This document shows, piece by piece, positions 39,535-49,453 of a DNA stretch of 64,000 nucleotides. Each line of letters begins with the position of its first letter. The stretch's first letter is position 1. The translations under genes were made by a program, and so were the position numbers. This DNA is from Flavobacteriaceae bacterium Ga0077528 (lineage in GTDB: Bacteria > Bacteroidota > Bacteroidia > Flavobacteriales > Flavobacteriaceae). The notes beneath the pieces are model-generated. The model saw only the letters and a program-made list of their open reading frames with translations, was not told the DNA's origin and made no database searches. The DNA is taken from contig LNDX01000001.1 of NCBI GenBank assembly GCA_001464475.1, forward strand, positions 372,001-436,000. Direction: 5' to 3'.

Positions 39535-40197
39535 TTACTTTTTCAATCCTTTGTAAAGATATTGAACTGTAAAGAACTCTTCAAAAGTACCAAAAGTTAC
39601 TTTGTTGATAAATTTTGTAAGCGATTTGCCTTTATATATGTTTAAAGAACTGATTATTTGTTTTGTAACTAATCCTGAAGATTCAAGTAGAGCAATAATA
39701 TTTTTTTTACAATAAAATCGATAATGAGTATAGTCTAAAATTCCGCTTTCTTCATATTTAAAATCTCCTTTTAAAAAGACTTGTTTAAAAACACTATAAT
39801 GTCTAACATTTGGCATACTTACCAAGATTTCTCCGTTAGGTTTTACTGTTTTATATATTTTTTCTAACGCAATTTTAGGCTCTATTAAATGTTCTAATAC
39901 ATCGGCAAGGATAACAATATCAAAATAATTATCATATTTAGAAACGTCTAACGACTCGATATTTCCAAAAATAAATGTGTCTAAAGGTAGGTATTTTTCT
40001 TTGTTTTTTGTGTCTTCAAATATATCAATACCAACAACTTCTTGTGCAATATTGCTCGTTTTTAAGTGATATAAAGTTGCACCATAAGCCGCGCCTATTT
40101 CTAAAACTTTCAATCCCTTTTTACTTTCATCTATTAAACTGATTAAATCATGTCTAACATTTGAATAATAATCGCTGTCTTTTTTTTCGTAGTTCAT
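39535..40197 (-). CDS. SAM-dependent methyltransferase (class I)
   Basis: Two hundred twenty residues with a Rossmann-type methyltransferase core: motif I VLEIGAAYGATLYHLK (about 31-46), the EVVGIDIFED region, VILADVLEHLIEPKIAL and PNGEILVSMPNVRHY. A C-terminal helical part follows. In this locus it probably methylates a sugar or an end group of the chain, which can also stop elongation. The acceptor is not known. Confidence 0.85.
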   Translation of the reverse strand: MNYEKKDSDYYSNVRHDLISLIDESKKGLKVLEIGAAYGATLYHLKTSNIAQEVVGIDIFEDTKNKEKYLPLDTFIFGNIESLDVSKYDNYFDIVILADVLEHLIEPKIALEKIYKTVKPNGEILVSMPNVRHYSVFKQVFLKGDFKYEESGILDYTHYRFYCKKNIIALLESSGLVTKQIISSLNIYKGKSLTKFINKVTFGTFEEFFTVQYLYKGLKK

Positions 40198-40320
40198 GGT
40201 TTTTATTCTTTTTATTTAAATACAACTTGTTGTAGTATAGTATATTTAATTATTTTATTCTATCTTACTTTTTTTGATTAATCAAATTGAAAAAAATATT
40301 AAAAACACTTTTTAAAAAAA

Positions 40321-42813
40321 TCAATTAATCACGATTGTTTTATCGGTTGTAGAAAATAATTGTTCTTTATTATTGTTAACGATTAAAATACCAACACTAT
40401 ATTTTCCTTTTGGTAAATCTTTAAACTTTATTATAGCAGAAAAACCAGCGTTATCATAATTTTTTCCATCAACATTTTTAAAATGTGACGTTACATCTTT
40501 TCTAAGTATTGCATTTGTTTCAATTTGATATATGTTTTTACCATTTTGAAGAGTTAAATAAACTATATTATTACTTGAACCAATATTTTTTATTGCTGCC
40601 CATCCATCAATATAACAATCCGAAACGCTGTTATTAGTTTTTTCAATATTAAATATTACGCTAGAATTGATTGGCGGTAATTTTTTAATGATTTGTGGTT
40701 TGGTTTCCTTTCTTATTACTAAAGTAGGTTGGTTTAATGATTGATAACTAATTACACCATTTTTGTTCTTTATCCCAATTGCTATTTCATAATTACCTAG
40801 TTCTGCAAATTCAGTAAAACAATTCACAGAAAAACCTGTGTTTTCAAGACTTTTATTATTAAAATGAGTAATTAAATCAGGTCTTTTTATAAGTTTTGTT
40901 TTAACTAGATAAGTTTTTTTATCACCAATCAAAGCAACAAATATTGAGTCTTTTTCACTATGACCATTTTTTAAAAATCCCCATCCTTGAAGTTGTAATA
41001 CATTATTACTAAATACATTTTTATCAACATTACAATTTATGGTTTTTGAGTTTAAATTTGGTCTGCTAATTTCATTAAGCTTTAAATCTGCTTTAATTTT
41101 ATTAAATATTGAATCCGTCTTTTTATTGTCTATATCTGTTTGCTCAAGTTGGTTTTTAATCTTTGTTTTTTTGCTATATAAAACATAATAACCGTCTAAC
41201 ATTTTTACTTCTACTTTTTCTTTAAAAATAATTGAATTAAAAAAATCTAAATTTTGAGGTGTTGTAATAAAAATATCATCCTCTGAAACCTCTCCTTCTG
41301 TAATTTTAAGGTTTAATGAATCCGTAAATTTTTGATTAATTGCCGTAGATTCTCTTGCCACATATCCACAAGTAATTGGCAAATTATTTTTAAGAGCCAT
41401 AAAGCATAAATCTTGATAATCGGATTTATACAATAAATTATTATTAAAAGGAACGTAGGTAATGATTTTTTTAAAATTCGATGTTAAATCTACCCACTTG
41501 TCCTCTTGAAGTTTCTCATTAGCATATTCCCCAATTTGAAGATTACGTGGTTTTATCATTTGTGAAATATCATAAAACTGAATAATCATAATAAGAAATA
41601 AAAAACTAGCTTTTATTAATTTTGAAAAATTACTTTTAATGACTATAATTAGTGAGAAAATAATTATTGCATAGTATAAAACCCAAATAAACCTTCCAGA
41701 AGCCCTGAAAATCGAACCGATTTTATACAATATAGAAGGAAGATAATAGGTGAATAAAACTTCTTTGTTGAAACTAACTGTATTTGTTGTTGCAAATAAT
41801 GTGAAGAAAATCACTAATATAAAAAATGGTAAGAAAATTTTTCCGAAATTGAATTTCTTAAAATTCCATAAAAAAAACATAATTGATATAATAAAAAGTA
41901 AAATCAAGCCTAACCCTAAATAAGCAAAGCCCTCATATTGTTGAGTACTTACTTTCTCTTGTTGAGGTAAAATATTTGAAAATGTTTCAGGGTTATAAAA
42001 TGAATTTAAATTAAAGCCATATAGTCCATAACTATTTGTTACTTCCATATTTACATCATTATTAAAAGAAATCATTCCTGTTATAAACCATAAAAATAAA
42101 ACAGAAACAATGTTTAATAACAAATAGAATGAAAACTCTTTAATTGAAATTAATTTATTAAAAAAATAATATTTGGCCAATAAAATAATTGAGAAAAACA
42201 AAACAATGAATAACATGTATGGATTAATCACCGCAGATAAAACAACTAAAATAAATTGTTTTCTAAGAATACTTTTAAATGTAAAAATGTTGGCATTTAT
42301 TAAGTAAAAATAAATTGAACCTAAAATAAGCCAATGTGAACATAAAGCAGGGTGCATTCCTCTGTACAACAAAACAGGATTAAAGGCAACTAATAAAGCA
42401 GCTATTATAGCAACAATGTCTGAAGCATTATATAGTTTAGCAATTTTAATTGTAAAAAAACCTGTCAATAAATGACATATAAACAACCACAACCCTAAAT
42501 ATTGAAATGTTTCAGGCAACAAAAACGAAATCGATTTAAAAATTATTGCCATTAATGGAATAGAATCTGTATAACCTACAGTTGTCCCAGCTGGATAATT
42601 AAAATTATTCACTTGACCTAATGGAAAAGTCCATGGCTCTTCTCTAAAATATGCCCATCCCAAATAGTGTTGACCCCAATCTTGATAAGCAGACATAATC
42701 CAATTTGTACTGCCTGGAAGTATTACTCCTAAACCATAATTAATTTGAAACATTATAGTTAATATGGACAATGCAATAAAATAAATTTTGTTTTTAATAA
42801 TAAATTGTGTCAT
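40321..42813 (-). CDS. Large membrane protein (DUF6311-like) with two C-terminal GW-RPDV domains
   Basis: Eight hundred thirty residues. The N-terminal ~430 form about 11-12 helices beginning IYFIALSILTIMFQINYGLG, then WIMSAYQDWGQHYLGWAYFR and FPLGQVNNFNYPAGTTVGYT, features I recall for DUF6311, a presumed GT-C-like or sugar-transfer membrane family. A soluble periplasmic region follows (about 430-590). Two tandem homologous domains end it: 592-702 (LQGWGFLKNG, KRPDLITHF, TGFSVN) and 717-830 (IDGWAAIKNI, RKDVTSHF, AGFSAI). The same domain ends the OstA-like protein two genes on. A role in transferring or recognising sugars is inferred. Confidence 0.75.
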   Translation of the reverse strand: MTQFIIKNKIYFIALSILTIMFQINYGLGVILPGSTNWIMSAYQDWGQHYLGWAYFREEPWTFPLGQVNNFNYPAGTTVGYTDSIPLMAIIFKSISFLLPETFQYLGLWLFICHLLTGFFTIKIAKLYNASDIVAIIAALLVAFNPVLLYRGMHPALCSHWLILGSIYFYLINANIFTFKSILRKQFILVVLSAVINPYMLFIVLFFSIILLAKYYFFNKLISIKEFSFYLLLNIVSVLFLWFITGMISFNNDVNMEVTNSYGLYGFNLNSFYNPETFSNILPQQEKVSTQQYEGFAYLGLGLILLFIISIMFFLWNFKKFNFGKIFLPFFILVIFFTLFATTNTVSFNKEVLFTYYLPSILYKIGSIFRASGRFIWVLYYAIIIFSLIIVIKSNFSKLIKASFLFLIMIIQFYDISQMIKPRNLQIGEYANEKLQEDKWVDLTSNFKKIITYVPFNNNLLYKSDYQDLCFMALKNNLPITCGYVARESTAINQKFTDSLNLKITEGEVSEDDIFITTPQNLDFFNSIIFKEKVEVKMLDGYYVLYSKKTKIKNQLEQTDIDNKKTDSIFNKIKADLKLNEISRPNLNSKTINCNVDKNVFSNNVLQLQGWGFLKNGHSEKDSIFVALIGDKKTYLVKTKLIKRPDLITHFNNKSLENTGFSVNCFTEFAELGNYEIAIGIKNKNGVISYQSLNQPTLVIRKETKPQIIKKLPPINSSVIFNIEKTNNSVSDCYIDGWAAIKNIGSSNNIVYLTLQNGKNIYQIETNAILRKDVTSHFKNVDGKNYDNAGFSAIIKFKDLPKGKYSVGILIVNNNKEQLFSTTDKTIVIN

Positions 42814-42918
42814 TTGTTTTGGTATTTGTTGAAGAACTCTTTTTATATAAACTCAATATATGGGCAAACTTATTTAATTAAATTTGTTTTTGTACACTGT
42901 TTCGAAATTTTATCTTAA

Positions 42919-43875
42919 CTATTCAATGTTTTCTATAAAATCTAAATAAGTTTTTGGGTTTGGTGCATTAATGTTTTTTCTAGAACTTAATTGCAATAGT
43001 AATACAATTAATGTTACTGAAAAAAGCTGTAAAATAATTCCTGATATGATTAAAATTAAGCTTGAAGCCCAACCTGGAATTGCGTTATTAGTGAACATCT
43101 TTTGATAAAAAATATACATTACCGAGATAAAACATAATCCAATTCCATATAAAGAATATCTTAAAATTCTTAACGACAAAAAATCAAAATAAACAGCAAT
43201 AGAACTTAATCCATGGATAATTAAGTTATTAAAATTCATTTTTGAAACTCCATGATATCGTTTCCCTCTGTCTAACAAAACTTTATCAAAGGGTATTTTT
43301 GATTGAATAATTCCTCCTGAATAGTGATTCCAAATATTGTTTTGATGTACAACTTTACCTATGAGTTTTTTAGGAATTACACTGAAATTTCCAAAATTTA
43401 TTTTTTGTCCTGTTAAAAAATAAAATAAGTATTTATAAAAAAAATACCCTGTTTTAAATAGTATTGATTCTTGTCTTTTTTTTCTTTGTGCAAAAATAAT
43501 TTTCTTTGAGCCCTCTTTAGTTGCTTTTTCTAGTAACAAAATTATGTCTTCAGGCTTATCTTCGCCATCACAATCCATTACAACAACATAATCATAATCA
43601 TCTTTTTCATTATAAATATATTGTAGTCCAACGGCAATAGCTCGTTGATGACCAATATTTACTTTTAGGTTTAAAATGGTTGTGTCAATAAAATTATTTT
43701 TTAATTCAATTTTATTTTCTTCTGTTGAGCCATCATTAACAACAATTATTGAGAAGTTAATGTTTGAATTATTAACCTGTATTTTCTCCATTTGAGTTAT
43801 CAAAACATGTAAACTCTCCCAATCATTAAAGACAGGTGTCAAACAATATATTTTCTTTGGTTTATCTATTTCCAA
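42919..43875 (-). CDS. Glycosyltransferase family 2 (DPM1/GtrB-like)
   Basis: GT-A enzyme of 318 residues with a cytoplasmic catalytic domain (KIYCLTPVFNDWESLHVLIT, VVNDGSTEEN, GHQRAIAVGLQYI, VVMDCDGEDKPEDI with the DXD) and two C-terminal transmembrane helices. This layout matches polyisoprenol-phosphate sugar transferases (GtrB, ArnC-like). Such an enzyme would make a lipid-linked sugar for use by a GT-C enzyme on the periplasmic side; the neighbouring 830-residue membrane protein is a candidate partner. Confidence 0.86.
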   Translation of the reverse strand: MEIDKPKKIYCLTPVFNDWESLHVLITQMEKIQVNNSNINFSIIVVNDGSTEENKIELKNNFIDTTILNLKVNIGHQRAIAVGLQYIYNEKDDYDYVVVMDCDGEDKPEDIILLLEKATKEGSKKIIFAQRKKRQESILFKTGYFFYKYLFYFLTGQKINFGNFSVIPKKLIGKVVHQNNIWNHYSGGIIQSKIPFDKVLLDRGKRYHGVSKMNFNNLIIHGLSSIAVYFDFLSLRILRYSLYGIGLCFISVMYIFYQKMFTNNAIPGWASSLILIISGIILQLFSVTLIVLLLQLSSRKNINAPNPKTYLDFIENIE

Positions 43876-43954
43876 TTTTTATTCTTTCAATGCTGTTTAT
43901 ATCCTCAGGGTAAATTTGTGAGATAAAACTACTTTTCAAATGTAATATAAATAA

Positions 43955-45934
43955 TTATTTAATATCTATTTTTTTATCTGTTAAAAGTAATCCTTCTTTG
44001 TTTGTTTCTTCATTTTTGAGATACACTGCCAATTGATAAGTGCCTTTTTTTAATTTAGAACTATCAATGGTTGCGTTAAAACCACATTCATCATTATTAT
44101 AATCTAGTTTAAAAGCCGCAATTACATCTGGTCTAGTTATTTTTTGAACATTAAGTTTTGTTGTCTTTCCGTCTTTTAATAATACTATTATAATCCTTGT
44201 TTTACTCGGAGATTGATTACTAAAAAAAGCCCATCCTGAAGCTTTAATTAAATTAATATTATTTTCAAATGCATCTATGTTACTAATAAAACTTTGTCCA
44301 ACTAACGTTTCATTAGGTTTGATTTTTGAAATTATTTGATTGATGTCAGCTGCTTCTTGTTTGTTTTTTTGTTCTTCAAAATTTGCCCTACTCTCTTCAA
44401 CAATCTTTTTATCCAATTCTACCTCGTCTTCTGGAAAAATATCTTCTTTTGTTTTTATTCGTTCGTCGCCTCGCCATACAAAACCTCGAAGTTTTCTGGC
44501 GTTTTCGGGTAAATCTTTTTCTGGATAAATATCACCATCTACATTATTGAAAAAAGTAATTGTTTCTACTTTACTTTTATCATCCATTATCATATTAATC
44601 TTGCTACTAACATTTTTATTGATACCTATAAGTTCGTTTTTGTCATTTCGCATGTAATAAACAACCTCTGTATTCTTAATTACATCGACTTCATGAAGTT
44701 TGTTTTCTAGAAATTTTCCGTAAAGATTTAAACCTTTTATCTGATTAAAACCATCACCAATAGTATCTTTTGAAATAATAAAAGTATTGTTTAACACTTT
44801 AAGCGAATCTAATTTTTCTGTTTTATTGTCACCTATCAAATGCATTACATCACCTGTAAGTTGGTTTTCAAAATTCCAAAGAATTGGTTTTCCAATAAGT
44901 TGTGTTAAAGCTCTCTTTTGATCGGAATGAATAGAATCACATTTACCGCTTAAATCTGTTTTGAAAAATCTAACGTTTTTTTGTCCTCTCACAATTCGTT
45001 CGCCTGTTTTCCCGGTTAAATACAACTTTTTAGCGTGAACAAACATAGAATCGTTTTCAACCTTATAGCGTATTGAAGCGTGCTTAGTCATGTAAACAGA
45101 ATCCTTTTGTTTAAAAACTTCGCCATAATGGCCTTTGATGATGGCTTTATTAATGGAATCTGTAATTTTTACATTATTAGTTCCTGAGGCATATTCGATT
45201 TTTCTATCATAATATAAACTGTCGCCTTCTATTAATCGGTCTTTATATTTTATATAAGATTTTTGGAGAAAATGTCCTGTATTGTTCTTACTGTTATAAT
45301 GTCCGTTTTCTGTATAAATAAAGGTTTCTTTACTTACAATAGTTGATGGTCCTTTTAAATCAGAATTCCCTTGAGTTGTTTTGTAATCTAAATGATTTGT
45401 CTTTATAGTATATTCTGGGTTTTTTAACTCAACAGCAGATAAGAATTGGTATTTTTTTTCCTTTAAATAATAACGTCCTGCTTTACTTTTTAAAGTGTTG
45501 TTTTTATTTACAATGGTTCCGTTTGAATTAAAATAAGCTTCTTGAGTGTTTCGGTCAAAATGAATAGTATCGGTTGTCATTGTTGACTCTGGTGAAGTCA
45601 TAACCACATTTCCTGCCGCAAATGCTTTTTTGATATTTCCATTATACTCGGCATATTTACTGTTTAAATAAAGTGTGTCGCCTTGTACCATTTGAACATC
45701 TCCAAATGCTTTTATGTAGTTTTCTTTCTGATAGTAATAGGCTTTGTTGCAAGTCATTGTTGCTCCATCATGACTAAGTCTCACATTACCTGTTAAAAGT
45801 ACAGCGTCTGGAACTTCAAATTGATTAATGTCTGAGTAATCAGTATGCTCAATAACAATTGTTTTTGCTTTTTGGGCAAATACAAATGCAATGTTCATCA
45901 TTAGAAAACTCAGTATAAATATCGTCTTTTTCAA
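43955..45934 (-). CDS. OstA-like (LptD/LptA-type) protein with C-terminal GW-RPDV domain
   Basis: Exported protein of 659 residues; signal peptide MKKTIFILSFLMMNIAFVFA (cleavage near Ala20). The body contains repeated OstA/LptA-like beta-jellyroll turns (PDAVLLTGNVRLSHDGATMT, GDVQMVQGDTLYLNSKYAEY, IIKGHYGEVFKQKDSVYMTK). An acidic linker follows (EDIFPEDEVELDKK, about 500-525). Residues 542-659 are an extra domain (SGWAFFSNQ, TRPDVIAAF, CGFNATI) shared with the membrane protein two genes downstream. OstA-like proteins of Bacteroidetes are thought to take part in LPS transport. The extra domain is the odd feature. Confidence 0.83.
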   Translation of the reverse strand: MKKTIFILSFLMMNIAFVFAQKAKTIVIEHTDYSDINQFEVPDAVLLTGNVRLSHDGATMTCNKAYYYQKENYIKAFGDVQMVQGDTLYLNSKYAEYNGNIKKAFAAGNVVMTSPESTMTTDTIHFDRNTQEAYFNSNGTIVNKNNTLKSKAGRYYLKEKKYQFLSAVELKNPEYTIKTNHLDYKTTQGNSDLKGPSTIVSKETFIYTENGHYNSKNNTGHFLQKSYIKYKDRLIEGDSLYYDRKIEYASGTNNVKITDSINKAIIKGHYGEVFKQKDSVYMTKHASIRYKVENDSMFVHAKKLYLTGKTGERIVRGQKNVRFFKTDLSGKCDSIHSDQKRALTQLIGKPILWNFENQLTGDVMHLIGDNKTEKLDSLKVLNNTFIISKDTIGDGFNQIKGLNLYGKFLENKLHEVDVIKNTEVVYYMRNDKNELIGINKNVSSKINMIMDDKSKVETITFFNNVDGDIYPEKDLPENARKLRGFVWRGDERIKTKEDIFPEDEVELDKKIVEESRANFEEQKNKQEAADINQIISKIKPNETLVGQSFISNIDAFENNINLIKASGWAFFSNQSPSKTRIIIVLLKDGKTTKLNVQKITRPDVIAAFKLDYNNDECGFNATIDSSKLKKGTYQLAVYLKNEETNKEGLLLTDKKIDIK

Positions 45935-45992: not shown

Positions 45993-46874
45993 TTAAATTT
46001 TACATGCTTTTAAACTTTCTTTCCAATCCTTAATTTCAACTTGAAAAAACTTTTTTATTTTAGTTTTATCTAAAACACTAAAAGCTGGGCGTTTTGCTGG
46101 TGTTGGAAAACTTGTTGTTGGTATAGCGCTTAAATTTATATTGACATTATTTATTTCAAATATTTCCTGAGCAAAATCATACCATGAACATTGTCCTTCG
46201 TTTGAGAAGTTGTAGATTCCGAAATGGTTGTTGGTTGCTGGTTGTTGGTTGTAGGCACTTCGACTGCGCTCAGTGTGACTAATCATTGAAATCAAAGCTT
46301 CGGCTAAATCTACTGCGTTTGTTGGTGTTCCAATTTGGTCATTTACTACTGATAAACTATCTCTTTCGGAAGCTAGTCGGAGCATGGTTTTCATGAAGTT
46401 ATTTGCGAATTGCGAATAAACCCATGATGTTCTTATAATGAAATAATTATCAAATGTTTCTTGAACCGCTTTTTCTCCTTGTAATTTTGTCAAACCATAA
46501 ACTCCTGTTGGATTTGGTGTGTCTTCCTCTTTATAAGCCGTTTTATTTGTGCCGTCGAAAACAAAATCAGTAGAAATGTGAAGTAAAATAGTGTCGTATT
46601 CTTTGCAAACCTCAGCTAGATTTTTTGCTCCTTTAACATTTATTAATTGTGCTTTTTCTGGTTCACTTTCTGCTTTATCAACTGCTGTGTAGGCTGCTGC
46701 GTTTATGCAATAGTCTGGTTTGTACTTTACAAAAACTGCTTCACAACTTTCTTTTTTAGTAATATCTAAATCTGAAGAAGAGCAAAAAACAAAATCTATT
46801 TCTGGAAAATTTCCTGAAATAGATTGTAACGCTTGTCCTAGTTGTCCGTTTGCTCCTGTTACTAAAACTACCAT
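45993..46874 (-). CDS. rfbD: dTDP-4-dehydrorhamnose reductase
   Basis: Last step of dTDP-L-rhamnose synthesis (NADPH-dependent reduction). 293 residues: GANGQLGQAL (7-16), the DLDITKKES stretch, INAAAYTAVDKAESEPEKA, STDFVFDG, YGLTKLQGEKA with catalytic Tyr and Lys, FIIRTSWVYS. Residues 200-216 (HTERSRSAYNQQPATNN) are an in-frame insert encoded by a repeat-like segment (46227-46277), in a loop between DLAEALISMIS and HFGIYNFSNEG. It appears not to break the frame and probably leaves the active site intact. The gene's start overlaps the end of rfbC. Confidence 0.95.
   Translation of the reverse strand: MVVLVTGANGQLGQALQSISGNFPEIDFVFCSSSDLDITKKESCEAVFVKYKPDYCINAAAYTAVDKAESEPEKAQLINVKGAKNLAEVCKEYDTILLHISTDFVFDGTNKTAYKEEDTPNPTGVYGLTKLQGEKAVQETFDNYFIIRTSWVYSQFANNFMKTMLRLASERDSLSVVNDQIGTPTNAVDLAEALISMISHTERSRSAYNQQPATNNHFGIYNFSNEGQCSWYDFAQEIFEINNVNINLSAIPTTSFPTPAKRPAFSVLDKTKIKKFFQVEIKDWKESLKACKI
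46227..46277. repeat. Repeat-derived in-frame insert in rfbD
   Basis: Fifty-one bases in two parts. One is a segment with core ACTTCGACTGCGCTCAGTG, an imperfect dyad I recall as a dispersed short repeat in Flavobacteriia. The other is a GTTGTTGGTTGCTGGTTGTT low-complexity run. Together they encode 17 residues that RfbD does not normally have. Confidence 0.7.
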
Positions 46875-47419
46875 ACTTTTTTAGCGTTTTTTAAATTGGG
46901 AAGCTGTTGGTCTTTTTCAGATATAATTAGCTCATTAACATCAAATTGCCAATCAATATTGATATCTGAATCGTTATATTTTATTCCGCCTTCGCTTTCT
47001 TTGTTATAAAAATTATCACATTTATAAAAGAAGGTGGCTTTTTCACTCAAAACCAAAAATCCATGAGCAAATCCTCTTGGAATAAAAAACTGTTTTTGGT
47101 TATCACCAGAAAGTAAAATAGCTATATGCTGTCCAAAAGTTTCAGAATCTGGTCTTATGTCTACTGCAACATCAAGTACTTCTCCATTTAAAACTCTTAC
47201 AAGTTTTGCTTGAACATGTTCTCCTGTTTGATAATGCAATCCTCTAAGTACTCCTCTCGAAGAATAGGATTGATTATCTTGAACAAAATGTACTTTTTCT
47301 CCTGTACCTTTTTCAAAAGTTTGTTCATTAAAGCTTTCCATAAAATAACCTCTTTCGTCATTGATTATTTTTGGTTCTATAATAAAACAACCTTTAAGTT
47401 TTGTTTCTGTAAAAATCAT
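46868..47419 (-). CDS. rfbC: dTDP-4-dehydrorhamnose 3,5-epimerase
   Basis: Cupin-fold epimerase of about 183 residues. The start at 47419 (MIFTETKLKGCFIIEPKIIN) is preferred to an upstream Met that adds eight leader residues. Motifs: DERGYFMESFNEQTFEKGTG, FVQDNQSYSSRGVLRGLHYQ (active-site His), KLVRVLNGEVLDVAVDIRPD, FFIPRGFAHGFLVLSEKATF, YKCDNFYNKESEGGIKYND. The 3' end overlaps the rfbD start by 7 bp, so the two are translated together. Confidence 0.95.
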   Translation of the reverse strand: MIFTETKLKGCFIIEPKIINDERGYFMESFNEQTFEKGTGEKVHFVQDNQSYSSRGVLRGLHYQTGEHVQAKLVRVLNGEVLDVAVDIRPDSETFGQHIAILLSGDNQKQFFIPRGFAHGFLVLSEKATFFYKCDNFYNKESEGGIKYNDSDINIDWQFDVNELIISEKDQQLPNLKNAKKVW

Positions 47420-47495
47420 GTTCAATAGCAATTTCAATAGCAAAAATCAAAGTCAATTTCTAAAAAATCAAACTTCATTTAAACTTAAATTAATT

Positions 47496-48359
47496 TTATT
47501 CTTCTAATAAACTCATTAAATGTAATCCGTAACCGCTTTTAAGTAATGGTGTTGCAAGTTCTTTTAATTGTTTAGCATCTATAAATCCCATTTTGTATGC
47601 CGCTTCTTCTATTGCTCCAATTTTCAATCCTTGGCGTTCTTCAATTACTTGTACAAACTGTCCGGCTTGCATTAATGATTGAAAAGTTCCTGTGTCTAAC
47701 CACGCGGTTCCTCTATCGAGAATACTAACTTTTAGATTTCCTCTTTTTAAATATTCTTTATTAACATCAGTTATTTCAAGTTCACCTCGATGACTTGGTT
47801 TTATATTTGCTGCCACTTCAATAATGGAATTATCATAGAAATAAATTCCAGGAACTGCGTAATTTGATTTTGGTTTTTCAGGTTTTTCTTCTATTGAAAG
47901 AACGTTTCCGTCTTTATCAAAATCAACCACTCCATATCGTTCTGGATCATGAACATGATACGCATAAATAATTCCACCTTCTGGATTACTATTTGCTTGT
48001 AATAATTCAGCTAAACCTGTTCCGTAGAAAATATTATCTCCTAGAATTAAAGCAGCTTTATCATTTCCTATAAATTCTTTTCCAATAATAAATGCTTCCG
48101 CAAGACCATTAGGGTTTTCTTGAACAGCATACTCAAAACGACAACCAAATTTTTTTCCATCGCCTAATAATTGTCTGAATAAAGGCAAATCGTGTGGTGT
48201 TGAAATGATAAGTATTTCATTAATTCCTGCCCACATCAATGTTGAAAGCGGATAGTAAATCATTGGTTTGTCATAAATAGGCATTAACTGTTTGCTTACA
48301 GCAAGAGTTAATGGGTGTAATCTAGTTCCTGAGCCACCAGCTAAGATAATTCCTTTCAT
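47496..48359 (-). CDS. rfbA: Glucose-1-phosphate thymidylyltransferase
   Basis: First enzyme of dTDP-rhamnose synthesis: glucose-1-phosphate + dTTP to dTDP-glucose. 287 residues, with [18 protein letters not shown] (1-18), [54 protein letters not shown] and [20 protein letters not shown]. It is followed by rfbC and rfbD. The 4,6-dehydratase gene rfbB that usually completes the set is not in the window. Confidence 0.97.
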
Positions 48360-48457: not shown

Positions 48458-49453
48458 CTATTTTGTTTTAGTTGATTGATTTTTATAAAAAGCTAGAAAT
48501 AGAGAAATAAGCACAAATAAAGAAATAAATAGTATCGGTAAAATCAATTTCATCTTTCCATTTGTCCCTTTATTATCTATAATATTTGGAGTTATACTAA
48601 TGTCTTTTATAAAAGATTCTATTTTTACTAATTGTATTTTTTGAGAAGCAATTTCACCAATAAGTTTGTTTTTTAACTCAAACATTGCGTTTATCTCGCT
48701 GTTTTCGTTATTGTATATTAGATTATTACTCTTGTTGTTGTTAGAAATGTTTTTAGATATTACACTAATAAGCGAATCTATTTGAACGATTTCTTCTTCG
48801 TTCTTCTTCATTTTTATTAATATATTTTCCTTATTAATTTTTGAAATCTGATTCATGTAGTCATCAGTATTCAAATATTTTAATAAAGGTTTAATAATAT
48901 CATCTGGTTCTATTCTTCCGTTTGATGATATAAGTAAAGAATGATATGGATAGTTTTTACTTGTAAGTTCATCTTCAATTACTTTATTAATATCATTACT
49001 TTCTGCAAGTAATTTTATTACTTCAAAGTTTTGAGTGTTTTGAGCATTTGAAGCGATTGCAGTATTGTTGTTTACAAAATTATAAAGATCAACAATTGGT
49101 TCAATTTTTATATTTTGAATTTTATCTGAATTGGCAATCCCAATACTTTTAAAAAATTTCTCGTCTTTTTCAGATAATCTTGATTTAATTAAATCTATTT
49201 TTGAGTATAAATAATCAACTCCTCCACTTGGTGCAACAATTATTTGACTATTATAATTTTTATTTGAATCTAAAAAGAAACCTAATCCTGCTCCAATTAT
49301 AAATAATAATCCTAGGATTAAGGCTTTTCTTTTAAAAAACAAAATCATATTAAAAATTGACATTAAAACAGCGTCATATAATCCACCAATTTTTTTTGAA
49401 ATATCAGATAAATCAATTTCTTGATTGTCGTTATTTTGAGAATTTGTACTCAT
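48458..49453 (-). CDS. Wzz/chain-length-determinant-like protein
   Basis: Inner-membrane protein of 331 residues with a cytosolic N-terminus of about 45 residues, TM1 (ALILGLLFIIGAGLGFFLD), a large periplasmic, coiled-coil-prone domain (50-300) and TM2 (LILPILFISLFVLISLFLAF). This topology is that of polysaccharide co-polymerases such as Wzz, which set chain length. No kinase domain is attached and no Wza or BY-kinase is nearby, so it is the Wzz rather than Wzc type. Confidence 0.8.
   Translation of the reverse strand: MSTNSQNNDNQEIDLSDISKKIGGLYDAVLMSIFNMILFFKRKALILGLLFIIGAGLGFFLDSNKNYNSQIIVAPSGGVDYLYSKIDLIKSRLSEKDEKFFKSIGIANSDKIQNIKIEPIVDLYNFVNNNTAIASNAQNTQNFEVIKLLAESNDINKVIEDELTSKNYPYHSLLISSNGRIEPDDIIKPLLKYLNTDDYMNQISKINKENILIKMKKNEEEIVQIDSLISVISKNISNNNKSNNLIYNNENSEINAMFELKNKLIGEIASQKIQLVKIESFIKDISITPNIIDNKGTNGKMKLILPILFISLFVLISLFLAFYKNQSTKTK

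Follow-up and report, generated by a model that had tools for sequence, protein, structure and literature searches.

What does an OstA-like protein gain, if anything, from a folded C-terminal domain that also caps the glycosyltransferase encoded two genes away? This question is raised by a locus in Flavobacteriaceae bacterium Ga0077528 (assembly GCA_001464475.1), of which we analyzed a 64,000-nucleotide stretch (contig LNDX01000001.1, positions 372,001 to 436,000 of the forward strand; "the window," with positions counted from its first letter). An OstA-like protein is encoded there within an O-antigen-type gene run and ends in a domain, GW, that is present twice more at the end of a DUF6311-like GT-C protein. 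The original prediction had noticed these copies and proposed a periplasmic glycan-recognition or docking module linking sugar transfer to lipopolysaccharide (LPS) transport. We find that the copies are homologous, that the kind of tail on OstA has changed repeatedly within one Flavobacterium clade, and that in one relative the tail was replaced together with the glycosyltransferase genes that follow. The features on which the argument turns are:

43955-45934, minus strand: OstA-like protein, 659 aa
44312-45934, minus strand: OstA-like core (OstA_2/LptD_N/LptC Pfam matches, one N-terminal hydrophobic segment) and linker
43958-44311, minus strand: GW domain ending the OstA-like protein (residues 542-659)
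42919-43875, minus strand: DPM1/PgfS-like GT2, putative polyprenyl-phosphate-sugar synthase (PF00535, E 1.9e-12)
40321-42813, minus strand: DUF6311-like GT-C protein, 830 aa (PF19830, E 3.8e-27)
41041-42813, minus strand: membrane part of the DUF6311-like protein (PF19830 at residues 13-315) and juxtamembrane region
40708-41040, minus strand: first GW domain of the DUF6311-like protein (residues 592-702)
40324-40665, minus strand: second GW domain of the DUF6311-like protein (residues 717-830)

The family labels first given to the three proteins hold. For the OstA-like protein, three Pfam matches lie above curated cut-offs (PF13100, E 2e-45; PF03968, E 8.6e-8; PF06835, E 2.6e-7), while the NCBIfam ArnC/PgfS models match the GT2 only far below their cut-offs. 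Crude hydropathy scans, the only basis for these counts, give a single N-terminal hydrophobic segment in the OstA-like protein and nine in the DUF6311-like protein, the last beginning near residue 399.

Pairwise local alignment scores among the three GW copies of the window are 120 to 124 against shuffled means of 30 to 32, which places them 15.6 to 17.0 standard deviations above the shuffled sequences, and for each pair none of 2,000 shuffles reached the real score. Profile-profile comparison of OstA tails (n = 9) with DUF6311-type tails (n = 12) by hhalign gave a probability of 99.8 and an E value of 2e-27. The three are the sole copies in the genome at E <= 0.1 (next hit, E 0.22), and G26, W27, R60, D62 and G77 (numbering of the 118-residue OstA domain) are invariant across 26 GW copies. 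No Pfam or NCBIfam model matches the domain above its curated cut-off. When the 26 members were searched singly against Pfam at E <= 10, the hits were weak and scattered (Y_Y_Y, the commonest, in 5 of 26), and no carbohydrate-binding module (CBM) was among the 20 families matched; the GW profile, run against PDB sequences, reached at best E 0.37. Judged by sequence comparison, the GW copies are one domain family lacking a Pfam model, with the boundaries originally assigned.

The predicted structure of GW (pLDDT 92, pTM 0.84) is an immunoglobulin (Ig)-like beta-sandwich of nine strands and one helix, in line with the beta-rich domain first described. The best VIA-align matches are RmlT (Z 8.5, 3.2 Å over 105 residues) and TarS (Z 8.5, 2.4 Å over 97 residues), with CrdA, ICAM-1, PD-L1 and CBM21 (the last at Z 8.1 and below) close behind. 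Domains of the major histocompatibility complex and of antibodies also rank beside the glycan-related ones, and therefore we did not read function from the fold matches; nor does a family's missing from these rankings count as evidence.

Which proteins carry GW? In a survey of 150 genomes of the same genus, from which records named Flavobacterium saliperosum, F. psychrolimnae and F. aquatile share these loci, 22 matched the domain at E <= 0.01. Four weak hits (G062, G092, G097 and G140; E 0.002-0.005) were discarded as chance, the one in G140 reading as RCC1-like, and the 18 left are all at E <= 1e-9. Apart from OstA, the carriers are membrane proteins with GW at the C terminus: (i) PMT_2-type GT-C proteins of about 615 aa, (ii) DUF6311 proteins with two copies (in all four DUF6311-bearing genomes among the 150), and (iii) a third kind of membrane protein, 558-693 aa long and not clearly assignable to any Pfam family. 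The domain is thus shared by DUF6311 and OstA, as the original prediction held, but types (i) and (iii) rule out that it is specific to the two, since several kinds of GT-C are capped by it. GW is mainly a GT-C domain and is rare on OstA, with nine such proteins found.

Beyond the genus the domain is sparse. A survey of 299 genomes of the family found it in five at E <= 0.001, the window genome among them, and two of the five (G214, E 3e-4; G261, E 8e-4) look like chance; among 395 genomes of the phylum it occurred in three at E <= 1e-4, two of which belong to the window's genus. Three contigs labelled Bacteroidales also encode membrane proteins with GW. By our reading of the sequences, a GW-like domain ends SGNH-hydrolase-like membrane-anchored proteins of about 480 aa in two other genera of the family (L108:1492-2922 and L109:382-1818); the L108 protein has no Pfam match at E <= 1e-4.

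A GT2 putatively of the polyprenyl-phosphate-sugar type, assigned by BLAST to three reference GT2s, lies within three genes upstream at 17 of 24 GW GT-C loci, three of the 24 being without upstream sequence. In the window it is directly upstream of the GT-C gene. Four loci (the window, L117, L120 and L121) have GW on both the OstA and the GT-C of a single cassette. At L118 (9962-11806), the PMT_2 GT-C adjoining a GW-OstA has another, non-GW C-terminal region; from this case, GT-C tails may be exchangeable too.

Most OstA proteins have no such tail. OstA was found in all 150 genomes, with one match in 148. At its usual, housekeeping site it is followed by an aminotransferase class III gene and a TPR protein gene (30 of 30 examined, drawn from the 139 OstAs of the 150-genome set outside the relocated clade described below and including the tailed protein of G119). 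In 29 of these 30 the protein has a short, mostly Lys-rich end without a folded tail; together, the two surveys rule out a tail general to OstA, in support of the original prediction. The ordinary C terminus (L098 and 28 other housekeeping loci) consists of a KETLxYDK-like motif, in which ET[LTV] is present in 28 of 29 when counted by eye, and then a mostly Lys-rich run.

In one clade, with core identity of at least 74% to the window, OstA sits instead at the rml/O-antigen locus. A survey of 398 genomes by OstA core, confined to matches above a cut-off chosen after the 150-genome OstA survey had been seen, identified 15 genomes of this arrangement, and all 15 relocated OstAs are tailed: four with GW, two with a second domain (FQ), and nine with a tandem repeat. 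Five further loci (L114, L115, L118, L119 and L121) were found via GW and were excluded from this comparison of tail with site; with them the total is 20 of 20, and the GW-bearing OstAs number nine. The sole tailed OstA at the usual site, that of G119 (L094), carries the repeat. Fisher's test relating tail to site (all 16 relocated OstAs, including five found via GW, versus 1 of 30) is post hoc, counts one clade as independent rows, and is descriptive.

GW and FQ are unrelated in sequence (hhalign probability 0.1), which rules out a single sequence family, and neither FQ nor the repeat has a Pfam match above cut-off. FQ is fused to OstA in G140 and G828. Otherwise it is found as lipoproteins of about 180 aa near the start of O-antigen-type clusters in 62 of the 150 Flavobacterium genomes, and 21 of 22 distinct stand-alone copies have a lipobox-like start, the remaining one being cut short. 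Examples are:

L122:8398-8934
L117:11336-11869
L087:15557-16093

At all of 20 further loci, a multi-segment membrane protein of 350-435 aa is encoded no more than two genes downstream of FQ; four of these proteins matched the window Wzx. FQ is present in 17 of the 24 loci holding a GW GT-C: in one of four where the GW GT-C adjoins a GW-OstA, in 16 of 17 other Flavobacterium-type loci, and in none of the three labelled Bacteroidales. The contrast of 16/17 with 1/4 (Fisher p 0.012) is post hoc, involves related loci, and is descriptive. For the FQ model (pLDDT 89.5), the top-ranking structures are CBM60-type modules (Z 8.3 and 8.2; next, 7.0), and Foldseek returned no match with FQ at E <= 0.001.

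The repeat, at the OstA C termini of L088-L094 and L181-L183, has a unit of about 84 residues (YNNRIVxDKNG...DWxTM..YDGGLFTGNE) and matched only OstA proteins among the 150 genomes (7 genomes). A flippase-family gene directly follows repeat-tailed OstAs in six of six scanned; of three found later, one has a flippase-family follower by BLAST and two have a follower without a BLAST match.

Where did the GW tail of OstA come from? The nine OstA GW tails form one clade (100% bootstrap) nested among PMT_2 GT-C tails, and capture by OstA was probably one event; we infer the direction of transfer from a tree whose forks enclosing this clade have 45-65% support only. The OstA tail is 46-51% identical to PMT_2 tails (from two sister loci) and 26-36% identical to the adjacent DUF6311 tails; identities and tree together rule out derivation from the adjacent DUF6311 gene. 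The OstA copy is nearer to PMT_2-type GT-C tails than to its DUF6311 neighbor, and two GW-OstA loci, L115 and L116, do without a GW GT-C alongside.

The tail kinds do not follow the OstA core. On a DNA tree of codons 1-500, tail kind changed at least seven times overall and at least five times among the 16 relocated rows; counting on starred branches alone still gives at least three changes for GW and two for the repeat. The approximately unbiased (AU) test on this tree, with groups named after the fact, rejects monophyly of the GW-tailed cores (p-AU 4.5e-6) and of the repeat-tailed cores (6e-4). In four pairs with different tails, identity is 0.76-0.99 across rmlA, rmlC, rmlD and OstA codons 1-500 and 0.1-0.4 beyond codon 530, the collapse falling inside OstA at codons 500-560. 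Two pairs in which both members carry GW (window-L115 and L114-L115) dip at codons 530-620 (amino-acid identity 0.63-0.65, third-position identity 0.60-0.77), a pattern that points to imported alleles.

The clearest cassette-level replacement is seen in G828 (L184), where tail and glycosyltransferase cassette differ from the window as one block. Its OstA core is 95% identical to that of the window (amino-acid identity 0.94-1.00 over codons 1-500), identity collapses near codon 515, and the protein ends in an FQ tail with an identity of 0.84-0.87 to that of G140. The five genes after OstA match those of G140 (96, 42, 91, 94 and 50%), and after them comes a methyltransferase 98% identical to that of the window. 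By blastn, homology between the window and L184 ends at 44389 and restarts at 40198; the exchanged block, 40199-44388, nearly equals the interval singled out by the original prediction (40324-44311). The cassette and its surroundings are:

40199-44388, minus strand: exchangeable cassette of OstA tail from about codon 515, GT2 and DUF6311-like protein; another block stands at this place in G828
39535-40197, minus strand: methyltransferase flanking the cassette (98% identical protein in G828)
45993-48359, minus strand: rmlD, rmlC and rmlA, upstream flank common to the relocated-OstA clade, named by sequence reading
48458-49453, minus strand: Wzz-like chain-length protein, labelled from its sequence, length and position, without a Pfam match above cut-off

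Gene order on the minus strand is rmlA-rmlC-rmlD-OstA-GT2-DUF6311-methyltransferase-GT4-Wzx-GT2-Wzy, where the rml names, like Wzz, are readings of the sequences and the others are Pfam matches. In this Flavobacterium clade, the 3′ end of OstA is a border of the O-antigen locus. The tail is exchanged with the glycan-synthesis cassette, which bears out the predicted genetic tie to the sugar-transfer locus, though not strictly: at L115 and L116, GW is retained beside different genes.

The tail is maintained as well as moved. Its ratio of nonsynonymous to synonymous substitution is about 0.27 (window versus G047) and 0.18 (window versus G067), compared with about 0.04 and 0.06 for the core, values by which the tail is under purifying selection. 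In addition, the identity of the Wzz-like protein, corrected for the core, is higher within the same tail kind: 65 of 5,000 permutations were as high with 14 loci and 48 of 5,000 with 18 loci, and AMN, rmlA, rmlC and rmlD showed no tail-kind effect in the same tests. In some relatives, the Wzz-like gene has diverged much further than its neighbors AMN and rmlA (45% versus 93-96% for L090-L119), which looks like a separate exchange between conserved flanks.

We favor, with a confidence that stops a little short of even, the reading that GW is an Ig-like accessory domain, borne by O-antigen GT-Cs outside the cytoplasm, that was captured by a relocated OstA (a putative LptA/C-like LPS bridge), is exchangeable with the cassette, and handles glycan. 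In its favor are the homology of the OstA tail to GT-C tails, the single clade of OstA tails among those of PMT_2, the tails on all 15 core-found relocated OstAs, the repeated changes of tail kind, the replacement in G828, purifying selection, the Wzz-like effect, and the precedents of EmbC and Wzt. FQ, recruited to OstA as GW was, also fits, being a lipoprotein elsewhere in such loci and having a predicted fold nearest to CBM60. By family resemblance, the GT2 would charge a polyprenyl-phosphate sugar, and the GT-C would add that sugar to the lipid-linked O-antigen outside the cytoplasm. The GW domains of the GT-C would hold the acceptor chain, as the C-terminal domain of EmbC does. A GW domain on OstA, at the end of the LPS bridge, would touch that polysaccharide on its way through, and FQ or the repeat would take this part with other O-antigens. 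By analogy, the tail might then bind or steer the O-polysaccharide made or decorated by the linked enzymes as LPS passes along the bridge. A bolder form, which we regard as rather doubtful, is that the LPS bridge is serotype-matched, with a C-terminal reading head inherited with the O-antigen side-chain cassette, through which Lpt transport would inspect or guide the O-polysaccharide, and with the unrelated GW, FQ and repeat domains able to fill the same role.

Several observations weigh against a glycan-handling tail. The best Z scores of GW (8.1-8.5) are near background for common folds, so the model suggests an Ig-like domain and goes no further, and the assignment of OstA as an Lpt (LPS transport) bridge in Bacteroidota comes from family homology alone. 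At L115 and L116 (the latter being G047), GW-OstA has no GW-bearing GT-C neighbor. The Wzz-like effect is modest and its rows are related; within the repeat group, the Wzz-like proteins differ considerably from one another. G828 combines an exchanged tail with a Wzz-like protein still close to that of the window (84%, versus 67% to G140), and therefore tail and Wzz-like protein were not exchanged as one. Finally, cassette exchange with a crossover inside OstA is possible without any function of the tail.

This last point is the core of the strongest alternative, hitchhiking, which we consider possible but distinctly less probable than glycan handling. OstA would simply happen to end at the edge of a recombining O-antigen cluster; crossovers in its 3′ part would attach whichever coding tail comes in, and harmless folding tails would persist. 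The place of the identity collapse, inside OstA in the four pairs and in G828, is what such crossovers would leave, and the unrelatedness of GW and FQ, the retention of GW at L115 and L116, and the Wzz-like gene left behind in G828 also fit. Purifying selection on the tails does not, nor does the presence of folded tails on all 15 core-found relocated OstAs, without a bare end among them. The repeat, moreover, is seen only on OstA and once at the housekeeping site (G119), and therefore the tails are not merely leftovers of the locus.

An alternative that we judge unlikely is docking, in which GW would be a protein-protein module pairing OstA with the GT-C or with a third partner (ligase or polymerase), bringing the bridge to the assembly site. 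Accessory domains of RmlT/TarS-type enzymes serve oligomerization or glycan contact, and both enzymes are among the top structural matches of GW; the tandem copies on DUF6311 and the four loci with GW on both proteins of one cassette would also suit a docking pair. Against this, 20 of the 24 GW GT-C loci show no GW-OstA within the sequence covered, L115 and L116 have the reverse arrangement, and the OstA GW is not especially close to the GW of its own DUF6311 neighbor. An assembly artefact or a chance resemblance is highly improbable: although the relocated-OstA records L114-L121 are all metagenome-assembled genomes, the arrangement recurs in these eight records from several accession series and in the window genome (99.99% complete, 0.62% contaminated), and the alignment statistics exclude chance.

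In the usual picture, the structure of the O-antigen makes no difference to Lpt transport. If the bridge has a domain specific to the cassette and swapped along with the sugar-transfer genes, this picture becomes testable, and nature supplies the chimaeras: the OstA cores of the window and G828, 95% identical, are followed by GW in the one and by FQ in the other. This freshwater Flavobacterium group may have transport machinery matched to each strain's surface sugar. The analysis also adds three domain families (GW, FQ and the repeat) without a Pfam match above cut-off in Bacteroidota envelope genes.

How does this arrangement compare with known systems? One close relative is the ordinary flavobacterial OstA-like protein (PF13100) of the aminotransferase/TPR site, the core of which is homologous over its whole length to that of the window and which differs in its short, mostly Lys-rich C terminus and its genomic site. 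Among the open-licence papers searched, none gives an account of an OstA tail of this sort, which agrees with the original remark that no description was known, and none deals with DUF6311. A paper on Prevotella intermedia places an OstA-like_N protein among the most heavily O-glycosylated proteins, which fits an extracytoplasmic location. For Riemerella, a homologue of LptA is named in one paper, which reports LptC and LptE as not found, and the main text of a paper on F. psychrophilum O-antigen loci (PMC6519341) is without OstA or LptA.

Three-component systems are made up of a GT2, a flippase and a GT-C. Such systems, outlined in PMC11127046, add sugars extracytoplasmically with the GT-C enzyme and, like the window, have a GT2 of the polyprenyl-phosphate-sugar type beside a GT-C protein. 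The window differs in that its GT-C carries GW and in that no donor flippase was seen beside the pair (small GtrA and EmrE-like open reading frames were not searched for). In the mycobacterial GT-C arabinosyltransferase EmbC, a C-terminal lectin-like CBM handles the acceptor glycan, as PMC3044687 describes. EmbC and the GW GT-Cs both bear a hydrophilic C-terminal region on a GT-C enzyme and are likened by architecture, not sequence; EmbC is without an LPS-bridge counterpart.

A close functional parallel is Wzt. According to PMC11231755, its C-terminal CBM in serotype-specific transporters specifically recognizes the moiety that terminates the O-polysaccharide. Like the OstA tail, this CBM is an accessory domain on an export protein. 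Wzt, however, is the ATPase subunit of an inner-membrane exporter and acts before ligation, whereas OstA is taken to be extracytoplasmic and to act on finished LPS, and glycan binding is demonstrated for Wzt and would have to be shared by the OstA tail. Since GW is fused to OstA or to GT-Cs rather than to an ABC nucleotide-binding domain, it is not a Wzt module, but it might work in a Wzt-like way.

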